This document shows positions 141 through 9,455 of a stretch of DNA of 63,306 nt, one piece after another (the stretch's first letter is position 1; the number at the start of each line of letters is the position of its first letter). The position numbers were made by a program, and so were the translations under genes. A model generated the notes under the pieces. The model saw only the letters and a program-made list of their open reading frames with translations. It was not told the DNA's origin and did no database searches. Source of the stretch: Paramagnetospirillum marisnigri (GTDB taxonomy: Bacteria > Pseudomonadota > Alphaproteobacteria > Rhodospirillales > Magnetospirillaceae); the NCBI RefSeq assembly GCF_001650715.1, contig NZ_LWQT01000049.1, forward strand, positions 1-63,306. Reading direction: 5' to 3'.

Positions 141-168
141 AAAAAAAACCGCTGGGTTGCCCCAGCGG
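141..168 (-). terminator. Intrinsic terminator inside left att core
   Basis: An 8-bp perfect stem, CCGCTGGG (149-156) and CCCAGCGG (161-168), has a TTGC loop. Read leftward it is followed by eight T (148-141), the classical rho-independent layout. It would stop leftward transcription leaving the element. On the plus strand the tail is only CTTGAGTTTT, so it is weaker in that direction. Confidence 0.75.
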
Positions 169-185
169 CTTGAGTTTTGGGAGGA
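141..185. repeat. attL candidate: left copy of 45-bp direct repeat
   Basis: This is identical over 45 bases to 9162-9206; the bases on either side differ between copies (ggc versus aat before, ttt versus aac after). It starts with eight A, contains the CCGCTGGG/CCCAGCGG hairpin and ends TTTTGGGAGGA. Its position next to the integrase gene fits an attachment-site core. Confidence 0.75.
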
Positions 186-230
186 TTTTTCGTTGCATAA
201 AAAAGTGAAAAAAAACAACGTATTCAATGG

Positions 231-269
231 TTGGTGACATGAGCAGGTCACATTTACAGGTCACATTTT
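231..269 (+). repeat. Left sub-terminal repeat (arm-type site candidate)
   Basis: This 39-bp block matches 9075-9113 at 32 of 39 positions in the same orientation. It contains three related motifs (TGGTGACAT, AGGTCACATTT, AGGTCACATTT). It sits 45 bp inside the left core, while its partner sits 48 bp inside the right core. This is consistent with arm-type sites for the element integrase; function is inferred from position only. Confidence 0.55.
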
Positions 270-325
270 GATTGATGTGCGGACGTTAAATAGGTAGGGT
301 TGGCACTCCATCGGAGTGTGGTGTC

Positions 326-2200
326 ATGCCCAAGGATAGCGGGCTTTCGAAGTATCTGTTTCGTAAGGGCGGCACATTTTACGTTCGAATGGCTGTTCCA
401 AAAGAAATAAGGGGGGCTTTTGGCGGTAAGGATATCCTCCTTCGCAGTCTCAGGACTGGTGATCCGAAAGTCGCCGAGATAAGAAAGGATATTGAGGTCG
501 GGAAAATAAAGGCCGATTTTCAGCGCCTTTCAAATCCTGACCATTTTGCACGCTCTTTGACATCATCATTACGGTGGTCACTCAACGCCGATGGAACTGC
601 TTCTATCATGGAGCCTGTTGAGACAAAGGCGACCGCCATTGGGGCGCTTTCTGTGCAAATCCTCCTGGAAGATGACCCGGAGAAGAGGGCCGAATTAGAG
701 GCCAGAAAGCAAGTCATGCTTGAAAAAATGCAGTCATCTGTTTCCGAATGGAAAGAGGACTTCCTGACGAGAAGAGGCCCTTTCGCCCGCGATCATATTG
801 ATGTAGCCAATCCAACGGACGTCCAGTCGTGGGTGCGAGACGCCAATAGGTTCTCCGAATTTATGGATGGCGGAAAGCCTCTCGATCAATCCATCCCCCT
901 TGATGCTCTCGCCGCCGAGATCAGTGGGCGGGACGTCAGCGAAACGGTAAGGGCGCAGATCGTCCAAGAGATTCCTTCCGCCTTGCTGCCCGAGCGCGCA
1001 TGGCCATACCTGTCCCGTGCCCGGTCGCCCAGTGTGCCGAACGCGGATAACATCACCTTGGGCGATCTCATCAAGCGGTTTTTCGCCGACGACAAACGTG
1101 CAAACCTCGATACTGCCACTCGGCGCAACTACAACACGACCATCGAGATCATGATTGATCTGCTTGGAGCGAATACGCCGCTTCGGGCAATAAAACGTGA
1201 CGATATTCGGAGGGTGCAGAGGGTCATAAGATACTTACCGCCCCGAGCCAAGGACTGCGAACGATTTCGTGAAATGACCTATCAACAGATTTCAGAGATC
1301 GCTGAGAAAGAGAAGATAACTGCTATTAAATCTGGAACCCGTAATAAATACATTCGTAACATTGGAACATTGTTCGCTTATGCATTAGAGGAGGAAAAGG
1401 TCGAGAGTAACCCTGCCCTTGGCCTTCTGCTACATCTTCCAGAAGACCGAAATGAGCAAGGAAAGGCTCCATTTGACTCGGATGATCTTCGGGCGATGTT
1501 TCCTAACACATACCAGATGATGGGATTAAATTGGCTTCCGTTGGTTATGCTCTTTCAAGGGTTCCGGCCAAACGAAGCCGCACAGTTGGATACCGCGGAC
1601 GTCATCAGGGTCGATGGCATTTGGGTATTTGACTTGACTGAGGAAACCAAGGGTCGGGTCGGTTCGGATCGCTGGGCCGACAAGTCATTGAAGAATGAAA
1701 CTTCGGCGGTGCGGCGGGTGCCAATACATCAAAAGTTGATCGATTTTGGATTTATTGATTATATTAAGTTGCGTATTGATGCAAATAAGCAAAAGTTGTT
1801 TGACGTAAAGCGGTATGGTCAGGCTGGATACTTTTTATCAGTCCAAGATCAGTTTGCCGCATGGCTTGAAGGTGTTGGCGTGAAAAATCCCAGCACATCG
1901 CCGCATTCGTTTCGCCATACTTGGGCGACGAAATCCTTTGGGGTCGTTCATGACGGTCTTCGGAAGATTATGGGTGGATGGACGCTAGGCAAAGGCGTCG
2001 ATGTTCAGACGTATCTTCATACAAATCTGCTTGATATCCATCGAATGAAGGCGGAACTGGACAAGGTGACGTTCGATATCTGCAACACCGATCCCGATCC
2101 TGCCCGAACTCATCCGGGGTTGATCGCGACCAAGTTAAAACGGCGGGCGACGCGGAACGGGAAGCGGCGCAGAACTATCCTTGCGGACACGCCCACTTGA
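326..2200 (+). CDS. Tyrosine-type site-specific integrase
   Basis: Integrase of the phage-type tyrosine recombinase family, predicted to catalyse insertion and excision of the surrounding element. The N-terminus (about residues 8-50, KYLFRKGGTFYVRMAVP) resembles the DUF6538 domain that often precedes such integrases. A SAM-like core-binding region lies around 245-365. The catalytic domain shows Arg414 in GFRPNEA, the H-x-x-R box His527/Arg530 (PHSFRHTW), a GGW motif near 550 and the nucleophile Tyr563 in TYLHT. At 624 aa it is long for the family, mainly from the N-terminal part. The ATG follows a GGAGTG ribosome site. The gene is AT-richer than the chromosome and lies about 140 bp inside the left 45-bp repeat, typical for an element integrase. 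Confidence 0.95.
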   Translation: MPKDSGLSKYLFRKGGTFYVRMAVPKEIRGAFGGKDILLRSLRTGDPKVAEIRKDIEVGKIKADFQRLSNPDHFARSLTSSLRWSLNADGTASIMEPVETKATAIGALSVQILLEDDPEKRAELEARKQVMLEKMQSSVSEWKEDFLTRRGPFARDHIDVANPTDVQSWVRDANRFSEFMDGGKPLDQSIPLDALAAEISGRDVSETVRAQIVQEIPSALLPERAWPYLSRARSPSVPNADNITLGDLIKRFFADDKRANLDTATRRNYNTTIEIMIDLLGANTPLRAIKRDDIRRVQRVIRYLPPRAKDCERFREMTYQQISEIAEKEKITAIKSGTRNKYIRNIGTLFAYALEEEKVESNPALGLLLHLPEDRNEQGKAPFDSDDLRAMFPNTYQMMGLNWLPLVMLFQGFRPNEAAQLDTADVIRVDGIWVFDLTEETKGRVGSDRWADKSLKNETSAVRRVPIHQKLIDFGFIDYIKLRIDANKQKLFDVKRYGQAGYFLSVQDQFAAWLEGVGVKNPSTSPHSFRHTWATKSFGVVHDGLRKIMGGWTLGKGVDVQTYLHTNLLDIHRMKAELDKVTFDICNTDPDPARTHPGLIATKLKRRATRNGKRRRTILADTPT

Positions 2201-2256
2201 TCCAATCCCATCTTCGGCAGTGATCAGCGGCCATCGCTCTCCGGTCATGTCATGGG

Positions 2257-2874
2257 TTATAGCGGGCCGTTGTTGTGGGAGTGACTCTCAAGCATGCCGA
2301 GCATCCTTTGATAACGCTCGTCTATGGATTGAACGTCCAATGCATTTCTGCATTTAATGTGTTTATTTTCCTTGATGAGGGCCTGACGCCATAGCGCCAG
2401 TACATCATGAAAAGACTCAGTTTTGGTGATAACGCTGTTGTGGAAGGCTCGAACGTGGGTCACCTCTTCCCCCACCCACGTTGGTAGCACTATGTCCTGC
2501 CAGGGATGGAGTAGCTCGACCTCGGCTACGACCAATCCAGTATGGCGTCCTTTGAATTCATCAATCTCCCAGGACAGGTCACCGACAATCCACACATGGC
2601 GGACTTTTTCCACTGGCCGATTGGGGCAAGTCGTGAGCAACTGCGCGGCGGTGTCCGGCGGAATTGAGCACTCTGCCTCCCATCTCGTTCCGGCAAAGAC
2701 CGGGGTTTTGACGGTGATAGTTCCCAGCTTCTCAGTCCAGCGGACGCGTAGGGTAATGCCGGGGGCAGAAGGCAGGTATCCCTGTCGGATGTAATGTCCC
2801 GGGGCATCACGGGGCCATCCATCGCGGACCAGGAACTTTCGTTCAGTCTCAGTACCGAGGATCATATTGTGCAT
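2257..2874 (-). CDS. CYTH domain protein (triphosphate tunnel metalloenzyme family)
   Basis: The protein begins with the family signature E-T-E-R-K-F-L (ExExK motif), followed by basic and acidic beta-strand pairs (LRVRW, TVKTP, RWEAE, WEIDEF, LVVAEVE) typical of the CYTH tunnel fold. Relatives hydrolyse inorganic triphosphate or thiamine triphosphate, or act as adenylate cyclases; substrate cannot be decided here. The start is uncertain: a GTG at 2922 gives 221 aa, but family members start just before ExExK, so ATG at 2874 (205 aa) or 2865 is preferred. It lies downstream of the histidine kinase on the same strand and could be the last gene of that leftward transcript, which would end at the terminator in the left att core. 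Confidence 0.8.
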   Translation of the reverse strand: MHNMILGTETERKFLVRDGWPRDAPGHYIRQGYLPSAPGITLRVRWTEKLGTITVKTPVFAGTRWEAECSIPPDTAAQLLTTCPNRPVEKVRHVWIVGDLSWEIDEFKGRHTGLVVAEVELLHPWQDIVLPTWVGEEVTHVRAFHNSVITKTESFHDVLALWRQALIKENKHIKCRNALDVQSIDERYQRMLGMLESHSHNNGPL

Positions 2875-3055
2875 GGACCGTAAATCCCGCCGGATGCAGC
2901 GCAAGTGTCCTCCCAGTGACACTGTGATTGCAATGGCCGATGCGGCAGATCGACTCTACTTTCCTGTCGATTTCCCCATTCGGGGCAACTTCTGACTTTC
3001 GGGCTGATCAACGTCAGAGCGGTCGGCTGCGGCACAGATGGACAGCAGGAACGGC

Positions 3056-4180
3056 TCATCTCAGGGATGTCGGAGCATCGGGCAATATGACCACAAACGT
3101 CGTTCCTTGGCCTTCCTTGCTATCGACCTCAATTCGACCGCCGTGGGCCTCAACTATCCGCGAGCAAATGTAAAGTCCAAGCCCGTTCGATCGCTCCCCT
3201 GCAGTCCCGATCTTACCTTTTACGAAGGGCTTGAAGAGATTAGCCATGACGTCTGGCGGAATGCCGCTACCGTGGTCAGAAACCGACAGTCGTTTACCGC
3301 CCTCGTCCTCGGACACTGAAACGGTGACGACATCACCGGCGCTGGAGAATTTGATCGCGTTGCAGATCAGGTTGTTGAGCACCTGCTTAACCTTCACAGC
3401 ATCCCCTTCGGTCCAAGCCGGTTTTGCATCAACGATAAGATGAACTTGCTTTTTTTCAGCGGCGACAGAGCCGATGGCAACGGCTTCTTCCGCTACAGCT
3501 ACAAGATTGATGCACTGCCAATTAACCTTAATGTCACCGGCATCGGCGATGGCCAGTTCCAGCACTTCCTCGATCAAATCGTTCATGAAGCTGGCTGCTT
3601 CGCGGATGGCTGTGAGCGAGCTGACCATTCGTGGCGACAGAGAGTTTTCTTCGGTCATTTCAAGGAATTCGGCATAGCCGCTGACCGCCCCAATGGGGTT
3701 CCTGAGGTCGTGTGCCAAAATCCCGAACAATTTGTTTTTCATCTCAACGGTGGCGCGGAGATCCTTGACCAAGGCTTCACGCTCTAGCATCAGGTTTATG
3801 CGGGTGATGGCGTAGCTGATCGCCCGCCACAGCATAGGACCAGTGAAGTACCCCTTTACCAGATAGTCCTGCGCCCCAAGGGCAACCGTCCGTTCGGCAA
3901 ACAAGGCGTCGTCTTGGCCGGTCATGATGATGATGGGAAGGCTTGGAGCCGCCTCGCGCATGCGCAGAAGCGTTTCCTCCCCCATCGCATCGGGGAGGGA
4001 AAGATCGAGCAGAACGATGTCCGGGCCGTTGCTGGAACCGAGATGACACCGCGCCTCCACCAGCGTCACTGCGAATGACACTTGGAACTCGGGCAGCGTC
4101 GATTCTGCGAGTGCGACCGCAATCAGTTCGGCATCACCAGGGTTGTCATCAACAACAAGGACCCGCAATGATTCTCTCAT
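3056..4180 (-). CDS. Hybrid response regulator-histidine kinase
   Basis: This 374-aa protein has an N-terminal receiver domain (residues 5-120; acidic pair Asp11/Asp12, phosphoacceptor Asp59 in LLDLSLPD, Thr87, Lys109). A HisKA dimerisation domain follows, with His157 in ILAHDLRNP, and then a HATPase domain (N box NLICNAIKF, G1 DHGSGIP, G2 GLGLYICSRI). It has no membrane segment or separate sensory domain, so input would come through phosphorylation of the receiver by another kinase or through partners. Its start overlaps the stop of the DUF2934 gene by four bases (ATGA), implying translational coupling. It belongs to a four-gene leftward cassette carried by the mobile element. Confidence 0.93.
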   Translation of the reverse strand: MRESLRVLVVDDNPGDAELIAVALAESTLPEFQVSFAVTLVEARCHLGSSNGPDIVLLDLSLPDAMGEETLLRMREAAPSLPIIIMTGQDDALFAERTVALGAQDYLVKGYFTGPMLWRAISYAITRINLMLEREALVKDLRATVEMKNKLFGILAHDLRNPIGAVSGYAEFLEMTEENSLSPRMVSSLTAIREAASFMNDLIEEVLELAIADAGDIKVNWQCINLVAVAEEAVAIGSVAAEKKQVHLIVDAKPAWTEGDAVKVKQVLNNLICNAIKFSSAGDVVTVSVSEDEGGKRLSVSDHGSGIPPDVMANLFKPFVKGKIGTAGERSNGLGLYICSRIVEAHGGRIEVDSKEGQGTTFVVILPDAPTSLR

Positions 4181-4383
4181 AGATCAATCCAGTTGCCGTC
4201 GATGGGGACATTCACGCTTGGAAAGGTAATTATTCGCTTGGACAGTTTTTTCTGACATGCGGCTTCCTGGAGCACCCAGCGTTCTGCCATACACCAGAAT
4301 TCCAGGTCTCGCCCCTCTGGCCGACCTGCAATTATCCAAAGTTTCCGAGCAATTTTTTCAATCTTCGCCTTATGATTGCTCAT
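4177..4383 (-). CDS. DUF2934 domain protein
   Basis: Small protein of 68 aa. The segment KIEKIARKLWIIAGRPEGRDLEFWCMAERWV matches the DUF2934 pattern (helix, then GRPEGRD and an E/W-rich helix), here in its shortened form. The function of DUF2934 is unknown; members often sit near signalling genes in alphaproteobacteria. An AAGGTGA ribosome site lies 5-6 bases upstream of the ATG at 4383, which is why this start is chosen over the upstream in-frame one at 4428. The stop overlaps the kinase start by four bases. Confidence 0.75.
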   Translation of the reverse strand: MSNHKAKIEKIARKLWIIAGRPEGRDLEFWCMAERWVLQEAACQKKLSKRIITFPSVNVPIDGNWIDL

Positions 4384-4393
4384 GGTATTCACC

Positions 4394-4654
4394 TTATGGT
4401 GAGGCATGAAACACGGGGCCTTCGCCACACGTGGCTACTTTGCCGCATAAAGGTTCCATTCCTGTCGATCTGCCCAGCCTGCATTCCTCGCAACGCCGGA
4501 GTAGCCGCAATGCCGTTTCGACGCCACGGACCGCCATGCAGACGAACTCCGCATCATATTTGTCACTGTGGCTGAGGATCGTCTGCGAGGCGGACATCAG
4601 CTCTTTGGCAGCTCGATGTCCATAGCAGTAGGATCGATCCAATTCACATTGCAT
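4394..4654 (-). CDS. Small hypothetical protein, CxxC motif
   Basis: Not recognised. The 86-aa frame fits between the receiver gene (ends 4670) and the DUF2934 gene (starts 4383) on the same strand with spacings of about 15 and 10 bases. It is largely helical, with a cysteine pair RRCEECRLG near residue 55 and further Cys at 3, 10, 39 and near the C-terminus. The ATG at 4654 has only a weak ribosome site, and no alternative in-frame start exists because of an upstream stop. Support comes from packing in the cassette rather than homology. Confidence 0.45.
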   Translation of the reverse strand: MQCELDRSYCYGHRAAKELMSASQTILSHSDKYDAEFVCMAVRGVETALRLLRRCEECRLGRSTGMEPLCGKVATCGEGPVFHASP

Positions 4655-4669
4655 GCGGCACCGTATTGC

Positions 4670-5185
4670 TCATGACAGTTTCTCCGCCGGGGCGAAGAAA
4701 CGCATTAACCGTGGCGCTTTCTCCTCCATGAATCGAGAAAAGCCAAAAGGAGCGACTATGTGCAGCTTCGGAACATGCTCCTCATGGGCCTGCTCCATGG
4801 CGCGGACGGCGACGGGAAAGAGCTTCCTGAGGGACAGCGGCTTGGATACGCGGGCGGTGGCTCCCGCCTCAATGACCTGACCTGCCATATAAGCCTCCAT
4901 CCATTCGTCCTTCTTGGGATCGGTCAGGACGATGATTGGGATGTTCCGCTTGCACCCGGCTTTGCCGTTGCGGATCTCGCGGACATGGTCGAGACCGCTG
5001 ACACCGTCGCTTTCATACTCGACGATCAGCAAATTGGGCTTGTAGGCCCGCAAGACACTCAAAGCTTCCTTGTGGTTTTCCACTTCAGTTATTTGGTGAT
5101 GGCCGGGGTAATTGAGAATCATCCCGATCAGGTGACGAAGTGGTCGGCTCTTTTCTTCAATGACGATGTGCTTGATTTTCGACAT
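4670..5185 (-). CDS. Response-regulator receiver protein with Glu at the phosphosite
   Basis: Stand-alone receiver-like protein of about 171 aa. The fold signature is present: IKHIVIEEK at the acidic pocket, NLLIVEYESDGVSGLDHV at the phosphorylation loop, IIVLTDP with the conserved Thr and VSKPLS with the conserved Lys. The phosphoacceptor Asp is replaced by Glu (residue 56 from the chosen start, 60 from the longer frame), so it may be a constitutive mimic or phosphorylation-independent. A C-terminal tail of about 40 residues has no DNA-binding motif. The ATG at 5185 follows a GAGGTG site, preferred over the ATG at 5197. First gene of the leftward signalling cassette. Confidence 0.85.
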   Translation of the reverse strand: MSKIKHIVIEEKSRPLRHLIGMILNYPGHHQITEVENHKEALSVLRAYKPNLLIVEYESDGVSGLDHVREIRNGKAGCKRNIPIIVLTDPKKDEWMEAYMAGQVIEAGATARVSKPLSLRKLFPVAVRAMEQAHEEHVPKLHIVAPFGFSRFMEEKAPRLMRFFAPAEKLS

Positions 5186-5365
5186 GCTACACCTCATTGC
5201 ATTCCAGTATCACTTGTGCGGCTCTTTATGCTGCGGCGCACACATCTTTTCAAGTTACCGTTATCTGGCCTTTATATGACGATCAAACTGCCAAATGATG
5301 GGTGGCGAGCAACTGGGTCATCGCCAGTCATTCCCCTCGACGGAAACAAGAACAGCACCAAGTCA

Positions 5366-5424
5366 GGTAGGCGGCGCATTTAGGCAAATGGGACAGGCCC
5401 ATTTGCGTGCGCCTCCCGCCTACC
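5366..5424 (+). other. Candidate origin of transfer (oriT), IncQ/MOBQ type
   Basis: Nested inverted repeats lie just upstream of the relaxase gene. The outer arms GGTAGGCGG (5366-5374) and CCGCCTACC (5416-5424) are perfect, as are the inner arms GCAAATGGG (5384-5392) and CCCATTTGC (5398-5406). Immediately after the inner hairpin comes GTGCGCCTCCC (5407-5417), which resembles the nick-region core of IncQ-type origins (GTGCGCCCT). In IncQ plasmids the relaxase recognises a hairpin adjacent to the nick in this arrangement. There is no T-run, so a terminator is unlikely. The assignment is inference from sequence and position. Confidence 0.6.
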
Positions 5425-5446
5425 GGCGGTCGATCCGGGGTGCGCC

Positions 5447-6583
5447 GTGGCGATCTACTCTTTCAGCGTCAAGCCGCTGGCGGCCGGAAAGGTCGGCCCG
5501 GCATTGGCCTACCAGACTCGCCAGCCATTGCGGCTGGACGCCCAGACATTCCGGCCATCCAAGACCGGCGGCTTGGCTGCCGAGGGCATCGTCTGGCCAC
5601 CGGGCGCTTCCGGGGACCTTATCTTCGGCGGGCGGGACGTCCTATGGGCCGCCGTGCTGGACGGCGAGCGCGTCCGTAAGCGCGGGCCACGACAAGGCGA
5701 CATCCGGCGAAGGGCCGTGGCCGGCCGCACCGCCATCGTGGCTCTTCCGCATGAACTGTCCGCCGCCCAGCGCCATACGCTGGTGGAGGAATTCGCACGG
5801 GAGATCGCGGAGAGATACGGGTGCGCCGTTGATTACGCGCTCCATGCTCCTGATGCCGCCGGAGACCACCGCAACCATCATGCCCACATCGCCCTGACCG
5901 AACGGGTCATCTGCGGCGATGGAACCGGCCCGAAAATAAGAGCTTTCGGCGGTAGCGACCGGGCCGAGGAACTGCGTCGGATACGACAGGCGTGGGAAGA
6001 CTGCTGCAACCGCCATCTCGCACGCGCCGGGTTTGTGGAACGGATCGATGCCCGATCACTGGAAGCGCAGGGAATTGGACGAAGGCCCACCCGCCACCGT
6101 GGCCCCGGACAGACCGCCATCGCCCGCAAGCGTCCAGCCGTTTCATGGGCGGTTGCGATGGTGCCCCATGACCGGCGATCAATGCGCAAGGACGCCCACA
6201 CCGCCGTCTTGGCGCTCGCCAGTGCCGTCCGGCTCGCCAATGACGAAGCCTCTCGGCTGGCCGCATGGAAGTCGCTCCTGACCAACTGTCGGGACGCGGT
6301 CAAGATGGGCCTCGCCCAAGGCGATGCTCTGGACTTGGCCAAGTGGGCGCTGAGGGCCGAGGCCGCAGCGGCATGCACGAAAGCATCGGCGCGGCCTTCC
6401 GGCACCCGCCTAGGTAAGCGTGTCGGGCAAGTGCTGGCCGAGGCCGCCGAGCCGATTAACGATGCGCGCACCGGAAGGATCAATGCCGAGGAATATCCCG
6501 CTGGCGAACTGGACCCAATCCTTACCGCATTGACTGCCGCGCACGGGGCGGTGCGGCGGTTCCACCGCCAGCGGGCACGGTAA
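5447..6583 (+). CDS. MobA/MobL-family relaxase (MOBQ type)
   Basis: DNA relaxase predicted to nick the element's oriT and remain covalently attached during conjugal mobilization. The N-terminus MAIYSFSVKPLAAG and Tyr22 align with the IncQ MobA start and its catalytic Tyr25. The metal-binding box is NHHAHIALTER (His145-x-His147), followed by WEDCCNRHLARAGF and RIDARSLEAQGIGR, a conserved MobA-type segment. At 378 aa it is close to a relaxase domain alone, without the fused primase of RSF1010 MobA. The GTG start follows a CCGGGG stretch. The gene ends convergently with, and overlaps by 62 bases, the gene at 6522-6965. A host plasmid or ICE would have to supply the mating pore. Confidence 0.9.
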   Translation: MAIYSFSVKPLAAGKVGPALAYQTRQPLRLDAQTFRPSKTGGLAAEGIVWPPGASGDLIFGGRDVLWAAVLDGERVRKRGPRQGDIRRRAVAGRTAIVALPHELSAAQRHTLVEEFAREIAERYGCAVDYALHAPDAAGDHRNHHAHIALTERVICGDGTGPKIRAFGGSDRAEELRRIRQAWEDCCNRHLARAGFVERIDARSLEAQGIGRRPTRHRGPGQTAIARKRPAVSWAVAMVPHDRRSMRKDAHTAVLALASAVRLANDEASRLAAWKSLLTNCRDAVKMGLAQGDALDLAKWALRAEAAAACTKASARPSGTRLGKRVGQVLAEAAEPINDARTGRINAEEYPAGELDPILTALTAAHGAVRRFHRQRAR

Positions 6584-6965
6584 AGCCAGCGGATTGGATT
6601 ACCAGCAGAACCAGTTGCAGTTCGGCTGTGGTCAATTCTCCGAACGCCCCGTTGCAATGCCAGCGGTGCAGATAAGCCGCCAACCTCGCTCTGTTCTGGA
6701 TCAGGATGCTCGGGTCGCGCAGTTTGTCGAGAGCACCGGGCAACAGCACCGCGACGCGGTTCCCGAGGGTGTATTCCACGTTTCGGCGCTGCGCTGCCCA
6801 CCATTCTGGACGATTTGCCCATCTTTGGGCGTCGGTGATCCCGCCGTCATCCCAGAATTCGGCATCGCCCGGCCCTTCGTCCCATGGGATGGGACGGCGC
6901 ATTGCAGCGGTTAGGCTGCGTTTGGGCTGTGGCTCGAATGCGGTGGGTTGTGCGTGGTGTTCCAT
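6522..6965 (-). CDS. Hypothetical protein in mobilization region
   Basis: Not recognised. This 147-aa soluble protein has an acidic, Trp-rich segment (IPWDEGPGDAEFW, RWANRPEWWAAQRR) followed by helices. The ATG at 6965 follows GGAGAA at good spacing and is preferred over the upstream start at 7004. Its 3-prime end overlaps the relaxase 3-prime end by 62 bases on the opposite strand. Because it lies beside the relaxase it could be an auxiliary mobilization protein, but no MobB/MobC signature is visible. Confidence 0.55.
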   Translation of the reverse strand: MEHHAQPTAFEPQPKRSLTAAMRRPIPWDEGPGDAEFWDDGGITDAQRWANRPEWWAAQRRNVEYTLGNRVAVLLPGALDKLRDPSILIQNRARLAAYLHRWHCNGAFGELTTAELQLVLLVIQSAGFTVPAGGGTAAPPRARQSMR

Positions 6966-7243
6966 GGTGTTCTCCGGGAGCGGCATTGCCCGCCAACCAT
7001 ACATAGGGCGACCTTCAAGGCCGGTAAGGGCAAGCCATCATCATCGGCTTTCTTTGCTTTCGGCTCCAAGAGCATGCGATTTCTAATGCGTGCTAGTTTG
7101 TGATTCAATTACAGCCTTAGCAAGCATTTTTCAAAAATTGTGCCCCGGCCCCATCGGATCGTGAGATCGCGAACACAGTATTCTGTCAGCAGGCCGGAAT
7201 GGTCCGGGCGCTGTGTGAGATTTCGGAAGAAGGGGAAGTAATC

Positions 7244-7636
7244 ATGAGCGCACATGATTTGATTGAAAAATGGTCCGCATTTGAAGAGGCCCTTGCGAGA
7301 TTTCGTAAAATATTAGTGGAAGCCCCGCCCATAGATGTGATGACCGAACACGCTAGAGGTAAGGCTATTAAATCGTTTCGACGATACGGTGATCCGCAAT
7401 GGCCATTAGAACTAGAATATGCAAAGAACAGAGTGTTGCAGGCTATGAAGGAGTTGTTAATTGCTGGCGGCGACATTAAAAAAATATTAAATAAGACAAA
7501 AGAACACGCAGTAATATCCGGTATAGCCAAGAGTATATCTAATGGAATAGACGCTTTTGAAACTACTTTTCCGGAATGGTTTTACATAGATTTAATCTTC
7601 GAGCGGTATCTGCCGCCAGACTTTTCCGATCCATGA
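7244..7636 (+). CDS. Orphan AT-rich hypothetical protein
   Basis: Not recognised. This 130-aa, mostly helical protein begins MSAHDLIEKWSAFEEALARF and has many Lys/Ile codons (ILNKTKEH, ISGIAKSISNGI). Codon use is strikingly AT-rich compared with everything around it, including most of the element, so it was probably acquired separately. The ATG at 7244 follows GGGGAAG. The opposite-strand frame at 7186-7530 is judged a shadow because it lacks a ribosome site. A hairpin terminator follows at 7735. Confidence 0.6.
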   Translation: MSAHDLIEKWSAFEEALARFRKILVEAPPIDVMTEHARGKAIKSFRRYGDPQWPLELEYAKNRVLQAMKELLIAGGDIKKILNKTKEHAVISGIAKSISNGIDAFETTFPEWFYIDLIFERYLPPDFSDP

Positions 7637-7734
7637 TTTTAGTAAAGAGAGAAAACGTCCTATATTGATACTGGCGCGGCAGGCTCCTTCGTCGCGGCCA
7701 AGGCGCTCTCGGATGCACCGTGAGCGAATGTGCG

Positions 7735-7762
7735 AAGGGCGGCCCATGGAGGCCGCCCTTTT
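7735..7762 (+). terminator. Intrinsic terminator
   Basis: A perfect 10-bp stem AAGGGCGGCC (7735-7744) and GGCCGCCCTT (7751-7760) with a 6-base loop leads into TTTT (7759-7762). It separates the rightward orphan gene from the convergent RepA-like gene and may serve both strands (AA at the far side). Confidence 0.65.
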
Positions 7763-7780
7763 CGGTGCCGGAGGACATCT

Positions 7781-8845
7781 TTATGCCGCAAGAAACCGGT
7801 CACCTTCGACCAACACCAAGCCGGCCTTTGTCAGGCCATCTCGCGCTTCGCGGAATGCCCGAGCCGGATTTGCCCCGCCGACCGCGCCGGACTCTTTGGC
7901 CACCTCCCGCCATTCGGCTTCGGTCAGACCGCCGTCGTGCTTGACCAGTATATCGAGCACCGCCTGCTGGTTTTTACCTCTGGGCTCGGTATCGTTCGCC
8001 GGTGCTGTGGCTGCGCGCTCTTCGCCGTCGAGGACTGCAACGAGACTGGTGATGGTTTCACCGTCCTCATCAATTCCGACCTCATGACTAAGCATTTCGA
8101 AGCCGAATGCGATGCCGGATGGGCCATCCTTCTGCTTTCGGATAAAGGCCTCAAAGCCCCGGTCCGACTTGCCGACCCGGACCACGAAGTCGCAGGCGCC
8201 TTCCAGCGCCCCGCTACCCCTCATGTCGTCAGCCTCTTTCGGGGTGTGGTGAATGATGATGATCGCACAGCCGAAGGTGCGACGCAGTAGATCGCACGCC
8301 TCGATAAAGCGAGCCATGTCAGGTTGGCGGTTCTCGTCGCCATCCCCGAAGCAGCGGGCTAGAGTATCGATTATTATCGCTCGCACCGGCTCGCCATCGA
8401 ACCGGTGGGCCATGTCTCTGACGAGGGCTTCGACGGCATCGGCATCCAGCAGATTGACGGGATGGGGTAGCACCTGCACGGTTGGGCACCGAGCCGCGTC
8501 GAGGCCATGATGATCGTGCCACGCCTTGACGCGATTGCGTAGGCCGCCAGCGCCCTCGCCAGCGATGATTGCAACTCCACCCTGAACGGTTCTGCGCCCG
8601 AAGCACTGTCGCCCGTGGCCAATGGATAGGGCCAGCGCCAAAGATAGGAAGGTTTTTCCAGCGCCGGGCTTGCCGTAAAAAACGCCGAGGCTTTCTCGAC
8701 CAATCAGGTGCTTGATGAGCCATGCCATAGACGGTTGGCTCAGGACATCTTCAAGGTTGAGGAACCTATGACGGGGGTGATGGCTCACGGGATTGGCCTT
8801 GGAAAGGTCAATGGTGATCGGGATTGGCTTTCGGTCGATGGTCAT
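7781..8845 (-). CDS. RepA-like AAA/RecA-fold ATPase (helicase)
   Basis: This 354-aa ATPase has Walker A GKPGAGKT, Walker B AIIIDTLARCF and a sensor stretch IIIIHHTPKEADDMRGSGAL. The arrangement is like IncQ RepA hexameric helicases and the AAA_25 family found in mobile elements. A C-terminal region (about 290-354, AVLDILVKHDGGLTEAEW) resembles a winged-helix domain. Its likely role is unwinding DNA for replication or maintenance of the excised element. The ATG at 8845 follows AAAGGAG and is chosen over the ORF start at 8974. Leftward, convergent with 7244-7636. No RepC initiator or primase is seen nearby. Confidence 0.85.
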   Translation of the reverse strand: MTIDRKPIPITIDLSKANPVSHHPRHRFLNLEDVLSQPSMAWLIKHLIGRESLGVFYGKPGAGKTFLSLALALSIGHGRQCFGRRTVQGGVAIIAGEGAGGLRNRVKAWHDHHGLDAARCPTVQVLPHPVNLLDADAVEALVRDMAHRFDGEPVRAIIIDTLARCFGDGDENRQPDMARFIEACDLLRRTFGCAIIIIHHTPKEADDMRGSGALEGACDFVVRVGKSDRGFEAFIRKQKDGPSGIAFGFEMLSHEVGIDEDGETITSLVAVLDGEERAATAPANDTEPRGKNQQAVLDILVKHDGGLTEAEWREVAKESGAVGGANPARAFREARDGLTKAGLVLVEGDRFLAA

Positions 8846-8997
8846 GGTGCGCTCCTTTCGCTTTTGCTTCGACGGGGTGACGAAGCAACGCACACCTAGG
8901 GGCGAAGCAGCAGATTGACGGCGCAGGGCGGCTATGATCCGACGGCATTTCGCCACCGCTAATCTTGACCCCATGTCCAGCGGTTATGCTGGCGGAA

Positions 8998-9050
8998 CGA
9001 TGGTGACGGACGGACGGTTTCTTTTGGAAACCGTCCGTCCGTCACCATCG
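8998..9050. repeat. Perfect long inverted repeat (24-bp arms, 5-base loop)
   Basis: Arms at 8998-9021 and 9027-9050 are perfectly complementary around TTTTG. Each arm contains a triplicated GGAC/GTCC-type unit (GACGGACGGACGG). There is no T-run after it. Placed upstream of the RepA-like ATPase and close to the element end, it could be a single-strand replication origin, a regulatory cruciform or a transcription barrier. Function unproven. Confidence 0.7.
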
Positions 9051-9074
9051 CCGGGCTCGCGAATTTTTATCCGT

Positions 9075-9113
9075 TTGGTCACATGGAGAAGTCACATTTC
9101 CAGGTCACATTTC
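9075..9113 (+). repeat. Right sub-terminal repeat (arm-type site candidate)
   Basis: Partner of 231-269, 32 of 39 positions identical and in the same orientation. It contains TGGTCACAT, AAGTCACATTT and AGGTCACATTT and lies 48 bp inside the right 45-bp core. Confidence 0.55.
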
Positions 9114-9161
9114 AGGTATATTAAAGAGTGCGAATATATGTGCTAATGCATTGAAAATAAT

Positions 9162-9189
9162 AAAAAAAACCGCTGGGTTGCCCCAGCGG
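9162..9189 (-). terminator. Intrinsic terminator inside right att core
   Basis: Same hairpin as at 149-168: CCGCTGGG (9170-9177), TTGC, CCCAGCGG (9182-9189), followed leftward by eight T. It would block leftward chromosomal transcription entering the element. Confidence 0.7.
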
Positions 9190-9206
9190 CTTGAGTTTTG
9201 GGAGGA
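9162..9206. repeat. attR candidate: right copy of 45-bp direct repeat
   Basis: Perfect copy of 141-185. It marks the right border of the element, after which the lytic transglycosylase region of the chromosome begins. Confidence 0.75.
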
Positions 9207-9455
9207 AACGTCCAAGAAAGACAACAAACTTAGGTCAGGAGACTTTCCGTTTGCTGCAGTGCAATATATAAAGGCTGGCGTTGCCGGGTGCAAGCGGAAA
9301 TATTGAGCACGCCACCCTGATTTCGAGAAAATGCCTGTTTTTCAGCCCCTTGCTGACGCAGATCAGGTATGACCACTTATCCTGGGCAAGATGGCGATTG
9401 CTGGCACGGGGGATGCAAGAGTAGGGTGGCGGCAATGCTCGGGAGCGGACCCATC

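Follow-up and report, generated by a model that had tools for sequence, protein, structure and literature searches.

The question raised by this locus is what a perfect 45-bp direct repeat brackets at the left end of contig NZ_LWQT01000049.1 (C49) of Paramagnetospirillum marisnigri, and how the DNA between its two copies came to be there. The window, that is, the whole stretch of 63,306 nt that was analyzed, is positions 1–63,306 of this contig, from a host assembly in 131 contigs; genomes, contigs and loci are cited below by working handles (G, C and L numbers). The repeat copies are located at 141–185 (attL) and 9162–9206 (attR), both on the minus strand and 9.0 kb apart, and are identical at 45 of 45 positions, as the first-pass annotation of this DNA had described. 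The G+C content is 55.6% inside the element and 64.5% in the remaining window. The analysis indicated that positions 141–9206 are very probably a chromosomal integrative and mobilizable element (IME), whose tyrosine integrase recombines the 45-bp core with the identical 3' end of the small RNA (sRNA) gene mmgR.

The nature of the repeat was revealed by an Rfam search, which placed a complete mmgR/suhB sRNA gene (RF00519, alpha-r8) at 9153–9229 on the minus strand, with a score of 53.7 bits over model positions 1–77 and a gathering threshold of 41 bits. The attL end gave a weak match at 134–220 (24.8 bits), below that threshold. The 45-bp repeat is the 3' part of mmgR with its terminator, made up of an 8-bp inverted repeat that encloses a short centre and of a T tract, and the 5'-most 23 nt of the gene lie outside the repeat; thus, the whole gene stands at attR and its 3' part alone at attL. 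By the match to RF00519, the repeat belongs to an RNA gene and not to anonymous sequence, and a whole gene at one end with a fragment at the other is the pattern known from tRNA-gene islands.

Comparison with related genomes, which the first-pass annotation had proposed as a check, found the single joined 45-bp site in relatives, so that the refuting case named there, the lack of such a site in relatives, did not arise. In these relatives, the identical 45 bp adjoin the identical conserved upstream part of the sRNA gene, and in G011 the chromosomal flank and the 45 bp are no more than 6 bp apart, without any inserted DNA. Since its single copy in relatives is the orthologous, conserved mmgR 3' end, the repeat is not due to chance. 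All 17 genomes of the genus carry one mmgR over the RF00519 threshold. In addition, 16 of the 17 contain a second, weaker RF00519-like match of about 80 nt (29–37 bits; G000 C59 19232–19311 and similar places), and this match may be a further alpha-r8-type sRNA. In G007, the att sequence shows a paired terminator-stem change relative to the genus (CTCGG with CCGAG), by which the stem is kept and its sequence altered. The relatives of this sRNA in Sinorhizobium meliloti and Caulobacter crescentus are transcribed and Hfq-bound; MmgR restricts polyhydroxybutyrate storage in the former, and alpha-r8 sRNAs act with Hfq in the latter (PMC7143759, PMC12559287).

The integrase gene (326–2200, plus strand, 624 aa) adjoins attL. 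Its product contains a DUF6538 domain and a Phage_integrase match of 20.4 bits, below the 27.1 cut-off of that family, and is 57–58% identical to integrases of G014, G010 and G002. The residues R, HxxR and Y, which we take to be catalytic, are invariant between the window protein and its two 57% relatives. Arm-type direct repeats of CAGGTCACATTT with a 13-bp spacing occur directly inside both element ends, at 231–268 on the left and 9075–9117 on the right (both plus strand). The left and right arm repeats are identical at 32 of 38 positions, as compared to a maximum of 24 in 60 single-base shuffles. A search of 289 genomes of the class at E ≤ 1e-40 returned the window's own integrase alone, the genomes G014, G010 and G002 being evidently outside that sample, and neither the integrase nor the exact att pattern was found in viral contigs.

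The same site is occupied elsewhere in the genus. The att-core pattern, with up to three mismatches allowed, was present in 12 of the 17 genomes and in two or more copies in eight, while the reversed pattern used as control gave none; att copies flank inserted DNA in seven of the 17. The eight genomes with at least two copies comprise six same-contig pairs, a pair in G009 divided between two contigs, the second copy having an integrase beside attL on another contig, and the undecided G007, where each copy is at a contig end (C55 start, C153 end) and both may be overlapping ends of one site. Copy spacing is 9.0 kb in the window, 16.5 kb in G014, 20.5 kb in G010, 33.4 kb in G008, 39.4 kb in G016 and 1.27 kb in G013. 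A single copy was found in four genomes (G001, G004, G011 and, on a 4.3-kb contig, G012). No pattern match was obtained in G002, G003, G005, G006 and G015, all of which have mmgR copies, with a differing stem sequence in G002 and G006. Across the seven attL–attR pairs, 41 to 45 of the 45 positions are alike.

The mmgR islands involve two integrase lineages. The first stands beside attL in the window, G014 and G010 and has TCACATTT-type arms, and the second, in G008, G016 and G009, is 32% identical to the window protein and has GTGGGGGA-type arms. The cargo includes, in G010, type I restriction-modification, RhuM, a protein kinase, HipA and an ISL3-type transposase, and in G014 a helicase-methyltransferase-PLD protein. 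The G013 insert (L082 17201–18516) has GTGGGG-type repeats at both ends and a gene with AbiJ_NTD4 and DUF7014 alone, without an integrase; it is apparently a minimal, non-autonomous defence island. As judged from these sequences, mmgR is a repeatedly used landing site for islands in the genus. A protein of 743–763 aa is encoded directly after the integrase gene in both G010 (L070 16495–18786) and G014 (L069 2874–5105); it had no Pfam match in either copy and no PHROGs match in the G010 copy, the one scanned, and no ORF of this size follows the integrase gene of the window element.

Outside the genus, 60 mmgR places in 59 class-level genomes were chosen from the listed places, 53 of them in stretches of 19–20 kb and seven in stretches of 3–12 kb. 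A terminator repeat (at least 34 of 48 positions ungapped, or 17 exact) was found at none of the 60, a survey that islands longer than 20 kb would escape, as would three of the six same-contig islands of the genus at this stretch length. An integrase profile, the two positive controls of which were also in its training set, gave one weak tyrosine-recombinase match (L237 2123–2884, E 1.1e-6), about 2 kb beyond mmgR in G204, a genome from another family of the class. In the literature searched, which was mostly open-access, an alpha-r8/mmgR gene as island target or hotspot was not found; small RNA genes are stated in PMC3161016 to serve as attachment sites, in a tRNA context. A broader idea, which we put forward tentatively and consider somewhat less probable than its negation, is that the Rho-independent terminators of sRNA genes are an integration niche of their own. 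The same hairpin would be read as core by integrases of two or more lineages, which are only about 32% alike and have unlike arms, and islands with defence and signalling cargo would stack behind one sRNA of a carbon/nitrogen-regulatory family, each arrival or loss replacing the 3' end of the sRNA.

At the left end of the window, the first 140 bp of the contig, left of attL, are not plain chromosome. Positions 1–77, at the contig start, are the end of a repeat with copies of 77–80 bp at 15 further places in the host assembly (99–100% identity), plus one at 84%; at least seven of these 15 places are contig ends, six starting at base 1 and the one on C109 ending at the last base. The repeat is judged to be insertion sequence (IS)-like from its copy number, no transposase having been read. 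Positions 78–140 are 76% identical to the bases directly inside attR of the G014 island (L069 17150–17212), with which they have a TATTCACATTTTGCC..TATAT signature in common. A G014-type right end next to an IS-like repeat indicates that another mmgR element stood in tandem to the left of attL and was cut by this IS-like repeat.

The host's own contig C60 was considered as the direct neighbor of the window and rejected: it carries the orthologous flank found 3' of mmgR in six relatives (76–83% identity) and in G007 (78%), together with a 39-bp exact att copy that lies 8.1 kb beyond this chromosomal flank. In other genomes, the flank lies directly at the att copy (G011 and G014) or is offset from it by 1.6 kb (G010), 2.6 kb (G013) or about 7 kb (G007). 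Contig C60 is thus probably the far side of the array, its linkage to C49 being inferred. To the right of the C60 att copy, an ORF (L024 12810–13997) has an N-terminus that, by eye, is nearly that of a G010 island ORF (L070/L071).

All ORFs between the repeat copies are intact, including those of the integrase, relaxase and helicase, and the ten of them were scanned for domains. The integrase is followed by leftward genes for a CYTH protein, a receiver-kinase, a DUF2934 protein, an 86-aa ORF and a solo receiver, and then by a backbone of genes in alternating orientation, namely the relaxase (rightward), a 160-aa ORF (leftward), a 145-aa ORF (rightward) and the AAA_25 helicase (leftward). The relaxase (5447–6583, plus strand, 378 aa) has a MobA_MobL domain alone, at residues 33–228. 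Its 3' end is overlapped by the gene of the conserved 160-aa backbone protein (6522–7004, minus strand), after which come the 145-aa ORF, taken from the ORF list and low in G+C (7199–7636, plus strand, 42.5%), and the RepA-fold helicase (7781–8974, minus strand, 397 aa). The element has its own site-specific recombinase with attL and attR and a single unoccupied site in relatives, as well as its own relaxase and oriT, and no mating-pair-formation family was matched among the ten ORFs. Domain matches and conservation uphold the proposal of a chromosomal IME with integrase, MobA-type relaxase, oriT-like structure and RepA-fold helicase.

Two inverted repeats of the backbone are kept in five elements. 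Directly upstream of mobA, the oriT-like block (5373–5440, plus strand) contains a stem-loop with a 9-bp stem, followed by GTGCGCCTCCC, with GTGCGTCGCCC in two of the five elements and GCGCGCCTCCC in one. In its stem, 44 of 45 pair cells are standard and two pairs are changed on both sides; the combined pairing and covariation score was reached by 8 of 500 shuffles. A 24-bp perfect palindrome (8998–9050), which lies 24 bp upstream of the helicase start, is paired in 120 of 120 cells and has five pairs with compensatory change, a number reached by 1 of 500 shuffles, while its covariation score was reached by none and its pair types by 17 of 500. Over five related sequences, this is good evidence that the palindrome is a selected inverted repeat, and it is a candidate replication origin or single-strand initiation site.

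According to the model that best accommodates these results, the terminator hairpin of mmgR would serve as the core-type inverted repeat, and the integrated element would supply a new 3' end to the sRNA gene, so that the sRNA would stay functional. After excision, the MobQ relaxase would nick at oriT and the element would leave by way of a type IV system supplied by a conjugative element, either incoming or unseen, while the helicase and the hairpin beside its gene may allow transient replication of the circle. The signalling genes would be passengers.

Several points weigh against this model. Mobility was read from the sequence, and neither excision nor transfer was observed. No excisionase was recognised among the ten ORFs, and the one VirB4-type helper family searched (PF03135) had no match in the 131 contigs of the host assembly, so that no resident helper was seen. 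The unoccupied site was seen in relatives, and none was seen in the species itself. The integrase relative of G002 (58%), which has arm-type repeats, adjoins a gene that was judged aroE-like by eye in the ORF list, and no mmgR 3' end stands beside it, so that the lineage is not bound to one site. Support for the oriT stem is moderate, because its number of pairs changed on both sides was reached by 60 of 500 shuffles and its pair types by 324 of 500.

The absence of a PF03135 match would also suit a decayed, immobile island retained on account of its signalling genes, and so would the tandem partner cut by the IS-like repeat, as many tandem IMEs are described as adjoining decayed elements (PMC5704250). 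This explanation is nevertheless unlikely, since attL and attR are identical at all 45 positions, as against 1 to 4 mismatches in the six other att pairs, and the ORFs of integrase, relaxase and helicase are intact.

The relationships of the backbone place the IME within a family of the genus. The relaxase gene is 84–86% identical in two places of the host's own assembly (C44 and C120/C109) and in G001, and more distant in G007; a family search of 55 genomes at E ≤ 1e-15 gave a match in five, two of them remote. The 160-aa protein is 73–88% identical in three related elements, with a third-codon-position bias of the changes relative to two of them and no clear bias relative to the third; its predicted structure had a mean pLDDT (predicted local distance difference test) of 52.7 and was not used. 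The helicase is 59–61% identical in G001, G007, G020 and the host's C109. Among named genome contigs, a search for this helicase gave 48 pattern stretches, none of which was confirmed.

The kin element of G001 (C2) is located in tRNA-Ser with a 19-bp repeat and that of C120/C109 in tRNA-Asn with a 23-bp repeat. In C44 the integrase lies beside tRNA-Gln, which is probably the target, with no repeat found in the stretch compared; this element encodes a DUF3987 protein, and the 19.9 kb that were read contain no match to the window helicase. These IMEs of the genus thus share mobA and the 160-aa protein with the window element, as well as the helicase in C109 and G001, and differ from it in their integrases, tRNA targets and cargo. 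The relaxase was not found in G014 and G010, the mmgR islands of which carry the kin integrase. Because the backbone kin sit at tRNA genes where the target is readable and the integrase is of the mmgR type, the window element is best read, from these comparisons, as a recombinant of the genus backbone with an mmgR-type integrase. The backbone would come from a genus-level IME family with two members in tRNA genes and the integrase from a family also present in mmgR islands; with such unlike kin, the element would be a modular recombinant, now in tandem with the remains of another mmgR island.

The first-pass annotation had attributed the backbone to an IncQ plasmid captured into the chromosome. 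An IncQ backbone is marked by a MobA fused to a RepB-type primase, by a hexameric RepA helicase and by a RepC initiator with an iteron-containing oriV. A MobA_MobL relaxase does occur here together with a RepA-fold helicase, and the best PDB match of the helicase is RSF1010 RepA (30.7 bits, E 1.3e-6, a weak match in a single-sequence search). The PDB matches of the relaxase are a nicking enzyme (E 1.5e-5) and then, weakly, R1162 MobA (E 0.0036). The nic-like GTGCGCC-CCC after the inverted repeat resembles the RSF1010 oriT and was counted in favor of IncQ, and a very divergent initiator is conceivable among the ORFs of 86, 145 and 160 aa.

The attribution was nonetheless not borne out and is improbable. 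The 378-aa relaxase lacks a RepB-type primase domain, no RepC-type family was recognised among the element ORFs in domain and PHROGs scans, and no iterons were found, the 13-bp arm repeats being the only repeats found. All plasmid records with the helicase (18) or the relaxase (4374) are below 60% identity. The top-ranked plasmid match of the relaxase is a Rhizobium TraA (38.7%; top-ranked TraA matches 37–39%), and its NCBIfam MobQ match of 117.5 bits is below the 200-bit cut-off; by these matches, it is a MobQ/Ti-TraA-type protein. The helicase also matches phage families, including the profile phrog_2850 (176.5 bits, from another type of search than the RSF1010 RepA score), and 600 phage records. 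A further reading, in which duplication of the sRNA gene instead of site-specific recombination produced the two 45-bp copies, is scarcely credible, even though alpha-r8 sRNAs are multicopy in many genera (PMC12559287) and the weaker RF00519 match recurs in the genus, for the conserved 5' part of the sRNA is missing at attL (24.8 vs. 53.7 bits), an integrase adjoins attL with arm sites at both ends, and the insert size at this one site varies by species.

Regarding the cargo of the IME, the earlier description of a two-component cassette holds for its signalling content and not for the pair as such. The genes, all on the minus strand, encode a CYTH-domain protein (2257–2922, PF01928), the receiver-histidine kinase (3056–4180), a DUF2934 protein (4177–4428, PF11154), the putative 86-aa product from the ORF list, whose reality is uncertain (4394–4654), and the solo receiver of 175 aa (4670–5197). 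The kinase has HisKA and HATPase_c domains, no membrane domain among its Pfam matches, and canonical motifs, with both LAHDLRNP and the receiver Asp present; a separate receiver with a phospho-acceptor Asp was not found. In the solo receiver, Glu stands at the position of the acceptor Asp and EE takes the place of the acidic DD pair; these substitutions make it probable that the protein is a pseudo-receiver or is permanently "on." The best relative of the solo receiver (83%) is in G006, where the cassette kinase and mob genes were not found in the 10.9 kb read, the contig ending 0.7 kb beyond. A LuxR-type response regulator stands at the matching place before mobA in C120/C109, and regulatory cargo thus recurs. 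Any rewiring of host signalling on acquisition, as put forward in the first-pass annotation, is hypothetical. A defence role was rejected, the PADLOC matches being weak or short: relaxase to DpdH over 64 residues (E 1.5e-13), with kinase and helicase weaker.

The element is of a known kind, an IME, and IMEs themselves, insertion at gene 3' ends, RepA genes in IMEs and tandem accretion, which is frequent for IMEs, have been described (PMC5704250). What the locus adds is a clear case of module swapping, with one mob/rep backbone joined to different integrases at tRNA-Ser, tRNA-Asn, probably tRNA-Gln, and mmgR. The mmgR 3' end also offers a new anchor for precise island mapping in magnetospirilla, where Islander-type finders look at tRNA and tmRNA genes. 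It further raises the question whether integration is neutral for a metabolic sRNA, or whether the exchange of terminator and downstream context alters the sRNA level.

Among known systems, the IncP island and GIsul2, both at the guaA 3' end, likewise combine a tyrosine integrase, a regenerated gene 3' end and a RepA-type maintenance gene; their target, however, is a protein gene, whereas that of the window element is an sRNA gene (PMC5704250). The IncP island is described with a MobP relaxase and Trb proteins and GIsul2 without a relaxase, in contrast to the MobQ relaxase of the window, where no mating-pair-formation genes were seen among the scanned ORFs (PMC5704250). The tRNA and tmRNA islands mapped by Islander share integration into an RNA gene, which is regenerated while a fragment of it is displaced to the other end, and differ in that the window element uses the 3' end of a regulatory sRNA; the terms sRNA, small RNA, ncRNA, non-coding and other RNA are absent from the Islander text (PMC4383910). 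A regulatory sRNA gene likewise provides the attB of the pneumococcal prophage phiOXC141, attB-OXC being located inside csRNA3; the sRNA of that system is changed to csRNA3L, for which an effect on competence was measured (PMC9764711), whereas the sRNA sequence at attR of the window element is whole.

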